Assembly: GCA_003647765.1 (NCBI GenBank)
Contig: QMNM01000041.1
Span: 1 to 8,947, forward strand
Source: Candidatus Cloacimonadota bacterium
Lineage (GTDB): Bacteria; Cloacimonadota; Cloacimonadia; JGIOTU-2; B8-G9
DNA length: 8,947 bases
Direction of reading: 5' to 3'
Shown here: positions 2,310 to 7,940 of the stretch, in pieces
Numbering within the stretch: position 1 is the first letter of the stretch
How the letters are laid out: each line of letters starts with the position of its first letter
Made by a program: the position numbers and the translations under genes
The notes under the pieces: model-generated
Seen by the model: only the letters and a program-made list of their open reading frames with translations
Database searches by the model: none
What the model was told of the DNA's origin: nothing

Positions 2310-2379
2310 AAAAGAAAGTTTTAATAAAATATTTTTGCTTGGAAAAGATATAATGTTATATTTATTTTGATAAGATACC

Positions 2380-2476
2380 GCGACGGTGTAAACACCGAGG
2401 CTGAGTCAATAAAAGAACGCTAAAATGTCCTATAATATAGCGTTCTTTAGAACGCTTTCTTTGACTTAGCGTGTGG
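2380..2476 (+). other. Structured repeat element, copy A (candidate ncRNA or hairpin MITE), upstream of groES
   Basis: The element begins GCGACGGTGTAAACACCGAG and ends TTGACTTAGCGTGTGG; both ends recur almost unchanged at 4504-4636. A small local hairpin GGTG-TAAA-CACC (2385-2396) precedes an outer stem GCTGAGTCAA (2400-2409) paired with TTGACTTAGC (2461-2470), 10 bp with one G-U. Inside it, 2412-2422 pairs perfectly over 11 bp with 2438-2448, while 2439-2445 can instead pair with 2450-2456. The latter is followed by a T-rich run. No protein is encoded. It ends 118 bp before the groES start, and a plausible groES promoter lies downstream of it, so it need not be in the groES leader. It could be a structured RNA, a miniature mobile element or both. 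Confidence 0.55.
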
Positions 2477-2481
2477 ATTTA

Positions 2482-2510
2482 TTCACTCGCAATTAGTTTG
2501 AACTTATAAT
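2482..2510 (+). promoter_or_regulatory. Possible sigma-70-type promoter for groES
   Basis: TTCACT (2482-2487) and a perfect TATAAT (2505-2510) are separated by 17 bp, which would place transcription start near 2517 and give a leader of about 78 nt to groES. The -35 box matches consensus at only 4 of 6 positions, and AT-rich sequence makes chance matches common. No CIRCE operator (TTAGCACTC, 9 bp, GAGTGCTAA) is present. A near-duplicate AACATAAAATAA occurs twice within about 2540-2575. Confidence 0.35.
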
Positions 2511-2594
2511 AATAAAATTACTACACTGCAAAAGTCCTGATAACATAAAATAATTCATTAACATAAAATAAAATAAGTAATTAGGAGGAGAAAA

Positions 2595-2864
2595 ATGAAG
2601 ATAACGCCCCTTGATGACCGTGTACTTGTTAAGCCAATTGAGAATAAAGAGAAAAAAGTAGGAAATATCATTATTCCTGATACGGCAAAAGAAAAACCTC
2701 AAATTGGAAAAGTCATTGCTGTTGGCAATGATGAAGATTTGCAAAAGGTTGTTAAAAATGGTGATAAGGTTATTTATGCTAAGTATGGCGGTACAGAAGT
2801 AGAACTTGAAGGCGAAAAATATCTAATTGTGCAGAGGTCCGATTTACTTGGTATTGTAGAATAA
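2595..2864 (+). CDS. groES: Co-chaperonin GroES (Cpn10)
   Basis: This is the 10-kDa lid of the GroEL/GroES folding chamber, a cytoplasmic heptamer that caps GroEL during ATP-driven folding. At 89 residues it shows the family start [15 protein letters not shown], the mobile loop ending [14 protein letters not shown], then the C-terminal [20 protein letters not shown]. The hydrophobic tripeptide that docks on GroEL (III) is present, but the usual GG before it reads VGN. The segment between IAVGN and KNGDKV is about nine residues shorter than in E. coli, so the roof hairpin is reduced, as in Bacteroidota proteins. A strong Shine-Dalgarno (AGGAGG, 2583-2588) sits 6 nt before the ATG. No groEL follows; thioredoxin comes 55 bp downstream and probably shares the transcript. 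Confidence 0.96.
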
Positions 2865-2919
2865 TGCTGACATCATACGATATACGGCTGACCATTTAAT
2901 ATTATCAGGAGAAATTATA

Positions 2920-3240
2920 ATGAGTGAACTAGTCATAACAGACGCGAATTTTGATAAGGAAGTTCTTCAGCATACTGTTCCGGTATTAGTTGATTTTGGG
3001 GCTGAATGGTGTACTCCGTGTACAATGATTGAGCCAATTATATCTGAAATTGCTAATGATTATGATAATCGGATAAAAGTGTGTAAACTGAATGTTGACG
3101 AGAATCCTAAATTAGCATCAAGATACCAGATTCGCTCTATACCCACTTTATTGATTTTCAATAATGGGAAAATAGTAGAACAGCTAGTTGGAGTTCAGCC
3201 CAAAGACAAGATTATTGAAAAAATCAATAATTATTTATGA
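2920..3240 (+). CDS. trxA: Thioredoxin
   Basis: This is a small cytoplasmic dithiol-disulfide oxidoreductase that reduces protein disulfides and is recharged by thioredoxin reductase. It has 106 residues and a single thioredoxin fold without signal peptide. Visible hallmarks are the buried Asp25 in VDFGAEW, the active site WCTPC (Cys31 and Cys34) and the cis-proline in IRSIPT (Pro75), followed by LLIFNNGK. The residue between the cysteines and before proline is Thr instead of the usual Gly, a variant that can shift redox potential. An additional cysteine occurs at position 55. AGGAG (2907-2911) lies 8 nt before the ATG. With groES 55 bp upstream and a strong terminator just after it, it appears to be the last gene of a groES-trx unit. 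Confidence 0.95.
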
Positions 3241-3263
3241 TGAGTATTGCGATTACAATTGAC

Positions 3264-3312
3264 AGGCGAGATTCAGTTAATCGTATTACTGAAATATCTC
3301 GCCTATTTTTTT
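3264..3312 (+). terminator. Rho-independent terminator after thioredoxin
   Basis: AGGCGAGAT (3264-3272) pairs perfectly with ATCTCGCCT (3296-3304). An inner continuation TCAGT/ACTGA (3273-3277 and 3288-3292) follows, and the stem is followed by ATTTTTTT. This is the clearest terminator in the window. It begins 24 bp after the trx stop and should end the groES-trx transcript. Confidence 0.88.
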
Positions 3313-3334
3313 GGTTTATAAACAGCATCAAATT

Positions 3335-3478
3335 CTAATATTACTTTGTTGAACAATACACAGACAAACTGGATCTTACAGGATTTATAATCCTGTATTT
3401 TACTATATAAAACACCATTACAAATGGTGTTGGGATCAATACTCACACTTCTGTAATTTGACAAAGTAAAACTAATAT
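3335..3478. mobile_element. Possible miniature inverted-repeat element with twin hairpins
   Basis: The left end TACTTTGT (3342-3349) is the inverse of ACAAAGTA (3461-3468), and similarity decays inward. CTAATAT occurs just outside both ends (3335-3341 and 3472-3478), as a 7-bp target duplication would. Within lie two perfect 9-bp hairpins with 3-nt loops: TACAGGATT/AATCCTGTA (3377-3385 and 3389-3397) and AACACCATT/AATGGTGTT (3411-3419 and 3423-3431). They are flanked by GATC (3372-3375) and GATC (3434-3437), which could close a three-way junction. No protein frame is present. It fills the gap between the trx terminator and the TIM-barrel gene. A structured RNA is the alternative. Confidence 0.4.
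3451..3471 (+). repeat. TTGACAAAGTAAAA repeat, copy 1
   Basis: This 21-bp segment, CTGTAAT followed by TTGACAAAGTAAAA, matches 4643-4663 at 20 of 21 positions. It forms the right end of the proposed element at 3335-3478. TTGACA resembles a -35 box, but no good -10 follows at normal spacing. Confidence 0.7.
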
Positions 3479-3531
3479 GTAATTATTTATTTTTTTATTT
3501 GACAATAGATTTATACAAAAAGGTTCTCTTT

Positions 3532-4470
3532 ATGAAAGTTAAAAATATAATTATTTCAACATGTTGGCGACTGATTTCATCAGAAGAGCATTTGAGTAAT
3601 AGAAAGACATTTCAAAGGATAGATATTTTTCACAAGACATTAGAATTTCTATTAGAGAAACAATTTAATAAATTAGAATTGAATGCTATCCCTGATTTAT
3701 CTCTTATTAACATGATTAAGAACGATTTTGATATAGTTTCCATTCATAATCCGATTGATATGTTAGAAGTAAGCAATGACAGTTATTGTGATAATATCTC
3801 TTCAGAAGAGAAAACTAAGAGAGAATTAGCAATTAAAAGGACTCTAAATACTATTGAATTAGCAGAGAATCTTGATGTGCAAAATATTGTTTTACATGCT
3901 GGAAGTATTCTCCCAAAGAAAAAGGATTGGCAGAAAAAACTATTACAAGCAAATGATAGTTTGTTGTTAAATTCTGCGAAAGAATGGCGAAAGAAAAATA
4001 AAGAGCCATTTTTTAGTAATCTACTTTTTAGTATGGAACAGATTCTCAAATATGATTTTAGAGTAAATATTTCTATTGAGTGTCGTAATTATTTCTATGA
4101 ATTTCCAAATCCAGAAGAATTACAAAAAATTTTCAATGAATTTGCTGACGAAAGATTAAAATACTGGCATGATTTTGGTCATTCAGAGATGCAACAAAGA
4201 ATGGGCTTTTATACTCACATTGATATGTTAAGAAATTTTAAGGATAAATTATCAGGAGTTCACATTCACGATTTTCATCCTGATAAATTAGACCATATTG
4301 CAATTGGTGATGGAGAAATTGATTTTCAAAGTTTATGGAAAGAACTGCCAGATGATTTTCTTCCTGTAATTGAAGTACATCCGAAGGTTAGTAAAGATAA
4401 GTTCTTGACTTCATTACTATTAGCCACAAAATTACACAAAAAAAATAGCACACTGAAAAACGCTAACTAA
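3532..4470 (+). CDS. Xylose-isomerase-like TIM-barrel protein (sugar phosphate isomerase/epimerase superfamily; possibly CbiR-like)
   Basis: This is a predicted metal-dependent enzyme with the AP-endonuclease-2/xylose-isomerase fold. Strand ends carry typical ligand-type motifs in order: VSIHNP, IVLHAGS, ISIECRN, YWHDFGHSEM, GVHIHDF, HIAIGDGEIDF and IEVHP, giving His, Glu, Asp/His, His and Glu in the expected succession. Superfamily members include endonuclease IV, sugar-phosphate epimerases and the cobamide-remodelling phosphodiesterase CbiR. The sequence alone does not fix the substrate, and no cobamide gene is nearby. The start at 3532 is chosen over a TTG at 3499 because AAAAAGG (3517-3523) lies 8 nt before the ATG. 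This gives 312 residues. The last 17 codons and the stop are made of dispersed repeats found elsewhere in the window, so the native C-terminus was probably near residue 295. Confidence 0.8.
   Translation: MKVKNIIISTCWRLISSEEHLSNRKTFQRIDIFHKTLEFLLEKQFNKLELNAIPDLSLINMIKNDFDIVSIHNPIDMLEVSNDSYCDNISSEEKTKRELAIKRTLNTIELAENLDVQNIVLHAGSILPKKKDWQKKLLQANDSLLLNSAKEWRKKNKEPFFSNLLFSMEQILKYDFRVNISIECRNYFYEFPNPEELQKIFNEFADERLKYWHDFGHSEMQQRMGFYTHIDMLRNFKDKLSGVHIHDFHPDKLDHIAIGDGEIDFQSLWKELPDDFLPVIEVHPKVSKDKFLTSLLLATKLHKKNSTLKNAN
4418..4441 (+). repeat. CCACAAAATTACACAAAA dispersed repeat, copy 1 (coding)
   Basis: These 24 bp (TATTAG then CCACAAAATTACACAAAA) are identical to 8914-8937. Here they encode part of the C-terminus of the TIM-barrel protein (LATKLHK); at the other site they are intergenic. 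A perfect 24-bp match is beyond chance in 9 kb, even in AT-rich sequence. Confidence 0.85.
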
Positions 4471-4496
4471 AGCCACTGACTAACATTGATAGAAAA
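4450..4496 (+). repeat. CGCTGAAAAA-type dispersed repeat, copy 2
   Basis: This copy is ungapped and about 36/47 identical to 2214-2260. It supplies the last codons (TLKNAN) and the TAA stop (4468-4470) of the TIM-barrel gene, then continues into the gap. Structured element copy B begins 8 bp later. Confidence 0.6.
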
Positions 4497-4503
4497 TTAG
4501 GTT

Positions 4504-4636
4504 GCGACTGTGTCAACACCGAGGCTGAGTCAAATAAAGAATGCTAAAGCGTCATTTAGTAAAAAATAAATATTTTAATTTGTGAATTCGTGGCTTTAAT
4601 AATATTAGAACGCTTTTTTTTTGACTTAGCGCGTGG
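4504..4636 (+). other. Structured repeat element, copy B (candidate ncRNA or hairpin MITE), upstream of nadE
   Basis: The left block (GCGACTGTGTCAACACCGAG, continuing GCTGAGTCAA) and the right block (TTAGAACGCTTT to TTGACTTAGC, then GCGTGG) match copy A at 2380-2476 almost base for base. The interior is about 36 bp longer and unrelated. The outer stem is again GCTGAGTCAA (4524-4533) with TTGACTTAGC (4621-4630), extended here by A-T pairs. AAAGCGT (4546-4552) pairs with ACGCTTT (4610-4616), followed by a long T run (4614-4622). The element ends 72 bp before the nadE ATG. Conserved ends plus a variable but still pairable middle favour selection on structure or mobility over coding; no frame is shared. 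Confidence 0.55.
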
Positions 4637-4642
4637 GACTTG

Positions 4643-4696
4643 CTGTAACTTGACAAAGTAAAAATAAGTTTATTTGGAATGCTTTACTCTGTCAAG
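4643..4696. promoter_or_regulatory. Inverted repeat spanning the nadE upstream region
   Basis: CTTGACAAAGTAAA (4649-4662) and TTTACTCTGTCAAG (4683-4696) are inverted copies with one mismatch over 14 bp, separated by 20 bp. The left arm belongs to the 21-bp repeat also seen at 3451-3471. The right arm ends 12 bp before the nadE ATG, just upstream of its Shine-Dalgarno. It could be an operator, a hairpin in the nadE leader or the two ends of a short mobile element. Confidence 0.45.
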
Positions 4697-5485: not shown

Positions 5486-5495
5486 TAAAGAATAT

Positions 5496-5557
5496 TGCGT
5501 AAAGCGTAAGGCGTAGAGCGTAGAGCGTAATGCGTAATGCGTAGAGCGTAATGCGTA
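5496..5557 (+). repeat. Heptanucleotide array NGCGTAR, nine units
   Basis: Nine consecutive units with a strict 7-bp period (TGCGTAA, AGCGTAA, GGCGTAG, AGCGTAG and so on) start 11 bp after the nadE stop. Only positions 1 and 7 of the unit vary. A second array is at 7870-7940. It resembles in kind the heptanucleotide short tandem repeats (STRR) described from cyanobacteria. It is not a CRISPR, since there are no spacers. Confidence 0.92.
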
Positions 5558-5580
5558 TGGAGACACCAAAATTATTTTAT

Positions 5581-7091: not shown

Positions 7092-7883
7092 ATGAATAAA
7101 AATATGGCTGATATTCAAAACAGTCAAGATTATCGGGAGATGAGATTAGATAAAGTTGGAGTTAAAGGTATTAAATATCCAATCTGGGTTGATGACAGAA
7201 AGCACCACATCCAACAAACAATAGCTAATATCAATATGTATGTGGAATTACCGCATCACTATCGCGGTACTCATATGAGTAGATTCATTGCAATCCTGAA
7301 TCATTACCAAGATAAGACCATTGTAAATAAACTTCCAGAACTGTTAGCGGAGATGAAAACGAAATTAAATGCTGATTTTGCCTATATTGAAATATACTTC
7401 CCTTATTTTATAGGAAAGAAAGCACCTGTATCCAAAAAGAGCTCTTTAATGTCTTATGATTGCTGTTTCATCGCTGAATTAGGAAAGAAGTTTAAATTGA
7501 AAATTTCTGTTGCTGTTCCAATCACTGCTCTTTGTCCCTGTTCTAAAGAAATCAGTAAATACGGAGCTCATAATCAGCGCGGATATGTAACCGTTACATT
7601 TTGCTATAACGAATTTGTATGGATAGAAGAGATTATTGAATTAGTAGAATCACAGGCAAGCGCACCTGTTTATGCATTATTAAAAAGAGAAGATGAAAAA
7701 TTCGTAACAGAATTGGCTTATGATAATCCCAAATTTGTAGAAGATGTAGTTAGAGATGTGGCAAATCTTTTGGATAAAGATAAAAGAATTACAGAATATA
7801 AAGTGGAATCAGAGCATTTTGAATCAATCCATAATCATAATGTCTATGCAATGGTGAAAAAACACAGGAAGCGTAATGCGTAG
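7092..7883 (+). CDS. folE2: GTP cyclohydrolase FolE2 (type IB)
   Basis: It catalyses GTP to 7,8-dihydroneopterin triphosphate, the first step toward tetrahydrofolate and, through the same product, queuosine. FolE2 is the alternative to the zinc-dependent FolE. The 263-residue protein has GTHMSRF (59-65), the signature CPCSKEISKYGAHNQRG (148-164) with the active-site cysteine region and conserved His, and the C-terminal ESIHNHNVYA (244-253). The frame is open from a GTG at 7062, but AAAGG (7082-7086) sits 5 nt before the ATG at 7092, and the upstream residues derive from a repeat. A third start at 7104 is possible. The last four codons and TAG stop are the beginning of a heptamer array. No other folate or queuosine gene is visible nearby. 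Confidence 0.95.
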   Translation: MNKNMADIQNSQDYREMRLDKVGVKGIKYPIWVDDRKHHIQQTIANINMYVELPHHYRGTHMSRFIAILNHYQDKTIVNKLPELLAEMKTKLNADFAYIEIYFPYFIGKKAPVSKKSSLMSYDCCFIAELGKKFKLKISVAVPITALCPCSKEISKYGAHNQRGYVTVTFCYNEFVWIEEIIELVESQASAPVYALLKREDEKFVTELAYDNPKFVEDVVRDVANLLDKDKRITEYKVESEHFESIHNHNVYAMVKKHRKRNA

Positions 7884-7940
7884 AGCGTAGGGCGTAATGC
7901 GTAAGTGCGTAATGCATAGAGCGTAGGGCGTAGGGCGTAA
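7870..7940 (+). repeat. Heptanucleotide array NGCGTAR, ten units
   Basis: Ten units of the same 7-bp family as 5496-5557; one unit has an extra base (GTGCGTAA) and one has a substitution (TGCATAG). The array overlaps the end of folE2, giving its last residues (KRNA) and stop, and stops about 40 bp before the kinase start. Confidence 0.92.

Follow-up and report, generated by a model that had tools for sequence, protein, structure and literature searches.

A dispersed REPIN-like element of Cloacimonadota and its association with subclass-1.2 TnpAY1 transposases

Introduction

The DNA described here (the window) is a stretch of 8,947 nucleotides (nt) from Candidatus Cloacimonadota bacterium (GenBank assembly GCA_003647765.1, contig QMNM01000041.1). 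Within a Cloacimonadota bin of 1.97 Mb (G000; 360 contigs, 88.8% complete), it forms contig C54. Two copies of an intergenic palindromic repeat lie in the window. Copy 1 (about 2376..2494) stands between a YitT-family gene and groES, and copy 2 (about 4500..4647) stands between a TIM-barrel gene and nadE. Both copies were recovered on the + strand by a covariance model (R1), copy 1 with 135 bits (E 5e-26) and copy 2, whose right hairpin has decayed, with 64.9 bits (E 1e-10). The repeat is called here a REPIN-like element, after the doublets of repetitive extragenic palindromic (REP) sequences that form hairpins (REPINs). A preliminary description of this DNA had presented the two copies as a structured element with conserved ends and a variable core, and had proposed that it was either a new class of non-coding RNA (ncRNA) or a hairpin miniature inverted-repeat transposable element (MITE).

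Structure of the two copies

Two similar blocks are indeed present in the window (D2, 83% over 58 nt; D12, 90% over 21 nt), and the 10-bp stem was described correctly: it is formed by the arm GCTGAGTCAA (2400-2409 and 4524-4533) and its partner TTGACTTAGC (2461-2470 and 4621-4630). The ends first assigned to the element are real conserved blocks, but the element runs further, and the right hairpin GTGGATTTATTCAC and TCGCAA belong to the unit. The left block, also conserved, contains a hairpin of its own, CGGTG-TAAA-CACCG (2384-2397).

All of the following features are given on the + strand. The left REP of copy 1 (2380..2401) consists of GCGA, the hairpin CGGTG(TAAA)CACCG and AGGC, and its stem has changed in a compensatory way between copies and in relatives. 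On the - strand, the same REP presents a TCAG foot and a hairpin with the loop TTTA. The long arm (2400..2470) encloses the variable core, and 95% of its cells are paired in 19 aligned copies. Inside it lies a terminator-like hairpin, AGCGTTCTTTAGAACGCT followed by TTCTTTG (2439..2456); two such sites occur in the region where 0.5 would be expected. The right REP (2466..2490), identified by sequence and by genome pattern search, is inverted relative to the left REP and reads TTAG (the foot), CG, the hairpin GTGGA(TTTA)TTCAC and TCGC. In copy 2, the left REP (4504..4525) has the loop TCAA, and the long arm (4524..4630), supported by sequence and fold, encloses a module, TAGTAAAAAATAAATATTTTAATTTGTGAATTCGTGGCTTTAATAATATTAG (4557..4608), that is absent from copy 1. 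This module is found at about eight genome places, and those that were read lie within element copies. The fold of copy 1 (2380-2476) has an energy of -35.6 kcal/mol; shuffled sequences average -20.3 kcal/mol (z = -5.1, 0 of 200 shuffles). The fold of copy 2 is weaker (z = -1.6) because its right hairpin has decayed and a module of about 52 nt has been inserted.

The consensus order is TTGCGA, hairpin CGGTG(TAAA)CACCG, arm GCTGAGTCAA, variable core, arm TTGACTTAGC, hairpin GTGGA(TTTA)TCCAC and TCGCAA, and the core of the consensus copy is rich in GAACGCT/AGCGTTC palindromes. The right end is the inverted counterpart of the left end. Across the 19 aligned copies the left loop is TNAA and the right loop TTNA, which are mutually complementary, and some copies have a near-perfect 22-nt palindrome at each end (GCGACGGTGTAAACACCGTCGC in L031, GCGAGTGGGTTCACCCACTCGC in L055). 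A cloverleaf, with an outer stem of GCGA and TCGC across both ends, was considered beside the fold with two palindromes; the counts support both, and the two cannot be separated because GCGA pairs with either TCGC.

The pairing itself is conserved. In the alignment of 19 copies, 16 pairs were changed on both sides, compared with 3.8 in shuffles. Helix mismatches in the window genome and close copies comprised 13 G.T and 11 A.C pairs. As these numbers are about equal, neither strand is favoured and no selection at the RNA level is seen; a strand-specific RNA constraint, tried on these counts, was rejected.

Copy number and genomic setting

The element is far more abundant than the two copies first reported. 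Pattern searches and the covariance model together give about 47 copies in G000. The left-end and right-end patterns occurred at 31 and 40 places, respectively, against 0 and 1 for reversed controls. R1, built from 19 copies and searched at E <= 0.01, matched 46 places, to which pattern search added one on contig C158. A strict right-REP pattern (at most 3 mismatches) was found 22 times in G000 and once in each of two relatives; it was found in none of the other 121 of 124 phylum genomes, and the reversed control pattern gave 0. The structural covariance model detected family members in 8 of 117 phylum genomes. An exact left-end scan of GTDB genomes returned two matches, both in Cloacimonadota RS_16_45, and searches of phage, plasmid and IMG/VR sets for the element returned no match. 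The 16 simple copies of G000 have a mean identity of 86%. The closest pairs reach 95-98%, so some of the amplification is fairly recent.

The gene context of the copies was read stretch by stretch, with a simple call of open reading frames (ORFs) of at least 80 amino acids (aa). None of the 47 elements lies within an ORF; overlaps with ORF ends extend to about 50 nt at most and are mostly at the 3' ends of genes. Many contig ends in G000 carry an element. In the window, groES and nadE (Pfam Cpn10 and NAD_synthase) do follow the two copies, as first noted, but each copy also lies just 3' of a + strand gene, and no orientation preference exists genome-wide: the upstream gene is codirectional with the element in 24 cases and opposed in 16, and for the downstream gene the counts are 21 and 16.

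Another inverted-repeat element (ATTACTTTGTTGAACA...TGTAATTTGACAAAGTAA), with two perfect hairpins of 3-nt loop (CAGGATTTATAATCCTG and AACACCATTACAAATGGTGTT), lies at 3335-3475 of the window. Its right end occurs again next to copy 2 (4643-4667), and many further copies of the REPIN-like element are flanked by it.

Variability of the core

The interiors had been described as differing in sequence and length, and the copies do vary, by whole modules, several of which are hairpins. One is a hairpin of about 70 nt (TTCACCCAGTG...CACTGGGTAA) at the arm position GCT^TCAA. The other modules are a TTAGCCACAAAATTACACGAAAA-type insert in some copies and the insert of 52 nt, AATTTGTGAATTCGTGGCTTTAATAATATTAG, seen in window copy 2 and present at eight places in G000. 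Orthologous insertions show the same. Downstream of mgsA, the elements of G013 (L055) and G012 (L057) have near-identical flanks and different cores. At an ABC-transporter gene, a hairpin module (TTTACCCCGTA...TACGGGGTAAA) occupies the exact position GCT^AAATC in G002, and G013 is without it; the end hairpins of this pair are very different in sequence (GCGAGAATATAAATATTCTCGC; GTGATAGTTTACTATCAC) and have the same loops, which amounts to compensatory change. The variability of the core is therefore explained by the gain or loss of whole modules.

In G013 and G012, the element at the mgsA end occupies the position at which a small membrane-protein ORF begins in G008 (L065), where that ORF is intact. 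The idea of an element inside the mgsA frame, acting as a bypass or intron-like sequence, was rejected: the element ends the frame by a stop, and mgsA of G008 stops at nearly the same place. Several copies of the element (e.g., L008, L021 and L040) carry, as an insertion in their core, a sequence akin to the repeat TATTAGCCACAAAATTACACAAAA, which stands at 4418-4441 and at the contig end (8914-8947) of the window.

A transposase bracketed by the element in relatives

In related genomes, the element stands on both sides of a gene for an IS200-like tyrosine (Y1) transposase of about 145 aa. In G013 (contig C105), each of two copies of a 142-147-aa ORF has elements on both sides. A tandem array (L108, 2345-2719) of three 125-nt element units, head-to-tail with no spacing, follows. 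The same bracketing was found in G008 (C188) and G005 (C39), which were located separately with PF01797. The bracketed proteins score 90-93 bits with Pfam Y1_Tnp and 85 bits with the NCBIfam IS200/IS605 transposase model (cut-off 55), and their nearest solved structure by sequence is ISHp608 TnpA. They are 142-154 aa long and contain the motifs DHVH or DHIH (EHIH in G005), YWQ, and YVKNQEEHH or YIKNQEEHH. Subclass 1.2 of TnpAY1 has been defined by DH[IV]H, WQ and Y---Q--HH in about 148 aa (Quentin et al., 2018; PMC6006769). Judged by these motifs, the bracketed transposase carries the signature of subclass 1.2. The sole Y1_Tnp of G000 (C246) has the Y motif of the same subclass, and no member of the element family adjoins it. 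The gene (L147) is followed by CCCAGTCG(TAAA)CGACTGGG-CTAC, which on the other strand is a GTAG-footed hairpin with a TTTA loop and occurs at two genome places only.

Subclass 1.2 has been listed as lacking REPs and IS200-type end structures (PMC6006769). The flanks of these genes were surveyed in Cloacimonadota alone, and the enrichment described here was found in exploration. The sample comprised 43 distinct loci with the Y...Q..HH motif (among L136-L195), giving 86 flanks of 200 nt, and hairpins of at least 7 bp with a TNAA or TTNA loop were counted. The flanks held 49 such hairpins, where shuffled flanks would be expected to hold 0.25; 297 control windows from these loci held 9, which makes the hairpins about 19 times as frequent in the flanks as in the control windows. 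Upstream, TTNA loops outnumbered the other type 15 to 3; downstream, TNAA loops did so 21 to 10. This enrichment beside 43 genes is contrary to the published absence of REPs in subclass 1.2. The class 2 (Y..NP) transposases of the same genomes, which belong to the REP-associated tyrosine transposases (RAYTs), were considered as hosts of the hairpins and rejected, with just 2 TTNA hairpins in 20 flanks. Of 60 plasmid homologues listed for a comparison beyond the phylum, nearly all are typical IS200.

With the loop read as TTNA, the foot is TTAG or TCAG in the element family and often ends in AG or AA (GAAG, ATAG, GTAG, NNAA) beside other subclass-1.2 genes. For TnpAREP, a CT cut next to the hairpin and a guide-dependent choice of site have been demonstrated (PMC8266576). 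The AG- or AA-ending foot is reminiscent of the GTAG guide of that enzyme, and a survey restricted to GT[AG]G feet would miss most such hairpins.

Interpretation

The repeat has the architecture of a REPIN, is dispersed, intergenic, unoriented and modular, and brackets subclass-1.2 tnpA genes in relatives. Both window features are probably copies of a non-autonomous REPIN-like element that is moved as single-stranded DNA by a TnpA of subclass 1.2; mobilisation by this enzyme, the single-strand mechanism and cleavage next to the foot are what we infer. The unit consists of two REP hairpins of about 22 nt in inverted orientation, and the inverted-repeat arm that links them encloses a variable, modular core. 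In a single-stranded state (e.g., on the lagging-strand template), each end would form a hairpin whose loop is TTNA, with an NNAG-type foot (TTAG or TCAG) on its 5' side. A small HUH/tyrosine transposase of TnpAY1 subclass 1.2 would then recognise the ends and cut next to them, moving or copying the unit with no duplication of the target. As a side effect, copies may act as transcription terminators, and the terminator-like hairpin at 2439-2456 may influence transcription locally.

Several observations weigh against this interpretation. The foot is TTAG or TCAG, not the GT[AG]G of REPINs and the bacterial interspersed mosaic elements (BIMEs), and the bracketed transposase scores 29.6 with the NCBIfam RAYT model, below its cut-off of 80. 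As neither a GT[AG]G foot nor a class 2 RAYT partner is present, the element is named a REPIN-like variant and not a member of the RAYT/GTAG system. A PF01797 search of G000 found no subclass-1.2 gene beside these elements; the cognate tnpA would lie either in the missing 11% of the bin or have been lost, leaving an orphan population. G013, one of the genomes with bracketed genes, has a contamination of 8%. At mgsA, a clean empty site was sought and not found, the element standing where G008 has about 118 nt of other sequence. Finally, most of the compensatory changes are owed to the right hairpin and to a single divergent relative, L060, the divergent copy of the ABC-transporter pair, and they are therefore taken as support for conserved hairpins and not as a measured RNA constraint.

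The proposal of a hairpin MITE was right in that the element is a dispersed, palindromic, non-coding DNA repeat. A classical MITE is nevertheless unlikely. Such an element would be an internally deleted relative of a DDE insertion sequence, would have terminal inverted repeats, and would move by cut-and-paste while duplicating a TA target. Some copies do lie within an outer inverted repeat (ACTTTGTCAAG...CTTGACAAAGTA) whose first and last letters may be TA, but this repeat is missing on the left in most copies. The conserved ends are hairpins and not simple terminal repeats, no consistent duplication was seen by eye (DDE insertion sequences were not searched for), and the transposase bracketed in relatives is of the Y1 and not the DDE type. 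These features place the element with the REPIN/IS200 type. Another account, still less probable, is that the copies are transcription terminators which multiplied as a repeat and are retained for that function. The + strand hairpin and T-run at 2439-2456 and the start of several copies at gene 3' ends would fit it, but the upstream gene is codirectional in just 24 of 40 cases, many copies have lost or exchanged this hairpin, and termination needs no pair of inverted REP ends.

A structured ncRNA or a riboswitch-like leader acting in cis on the downstream genes is very improbable, even though copy 1 folds strongly (z = -5.1), pairing is conserved and + strand genes follow both window copies. 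The absence of a riboswitch or ribozyme match was confirmed by an Rfam scan of the window (0 matches at gathering score). About 47 copies stand by unrelated genes without orientation bias and none within ORFs, A.C and G.T mismatches in the helices are about equal, the element is palindromic on both strands, and its interiors are exchanged wholesale. Many copies without consistent orientation had been named beforehand as an argument against a new ncRNA class, and this is largely what was found, although the stem pairing is still conserved. The case calls for caution: in uncultured phyla, an intergenic repeat that folds strongly can pass for a new regulatory RNA.

Beyond the REPIN-like element itself, it is about an even call whether TnpAY1 subclass 1.2 serves a further, widespread kind of REPtron as its enzyme. 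The repeats of such a REPtron would have a TTNA tetraloop and an NNAG-type foot in place of GT[AG]G, and in Cloacimonadota they would have grown into REPINs that accrete hairpin modules in the core. The TTNA-loop hairpins offer a concrete, testable substrate.

Other features of the window

Short tandem arrays of GCGTAATGCGTAGA-type 7-mers occupy two intergenic spaces (5488-5558 and 7869-7940). At 1142-1318 lies the apparent start of an epimerase of the NAD-dependent type (NIFVTGGTGFI...), of which about 58 codons remain.

Comparison with known systems

The IS200/IS605 family shares with the present system a Y1 transposase of the same Pfam and NCBIfam families and subterminal hairpins. It differs in that the elements here are geneless and their ends are dispersed in tens of copies, and no tnpB was seen beside the tnpA loci that were read. 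The BOX elements of Streptococcus pneumoniae likewise have conserved outer modules and a variable inner module; their sequence is unrelated. The CGTC-tagged palindromic repeats (PMC3733652) have similar stems of 8-9 bp and loops of 4-5 nt and often occur as dimers. The elements described here lack their unpaired CGTC end, and in relatives they flank a transposase gene, whereas the CGTC-tagged repeats flank none.

The most extensive likeness is to the REPIN/BIME repeats of E. coli and Pseudomonas and their RAYT, or TnpAREP (PMC3116915; PMC8266576). Shared features include two inverted palindromes with a variable linker, a dispersed, extragenic and sometimes tandem arrangement, a flanked gene for a small HUH-Y1 transposase (here in relatives) and compensatory changes in the stems. 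Apart from the foot, the element differs in its conserved TTNA tetraloop, in the further hairpin modules nested in its core, and in a transposase of subclass 1.2 (Y---Q--HH) instead of class 2 (Y---NP). The few bacterial mobile repeats thought to be very long-lived include REPINs with their single-copy transposases, which have so far been tied to class 2 RAYTs and the GTAG foot. The same architecture beside a supposedly repeat-free group of transposases points to a broader set of enzymes able to maintain such repeats.

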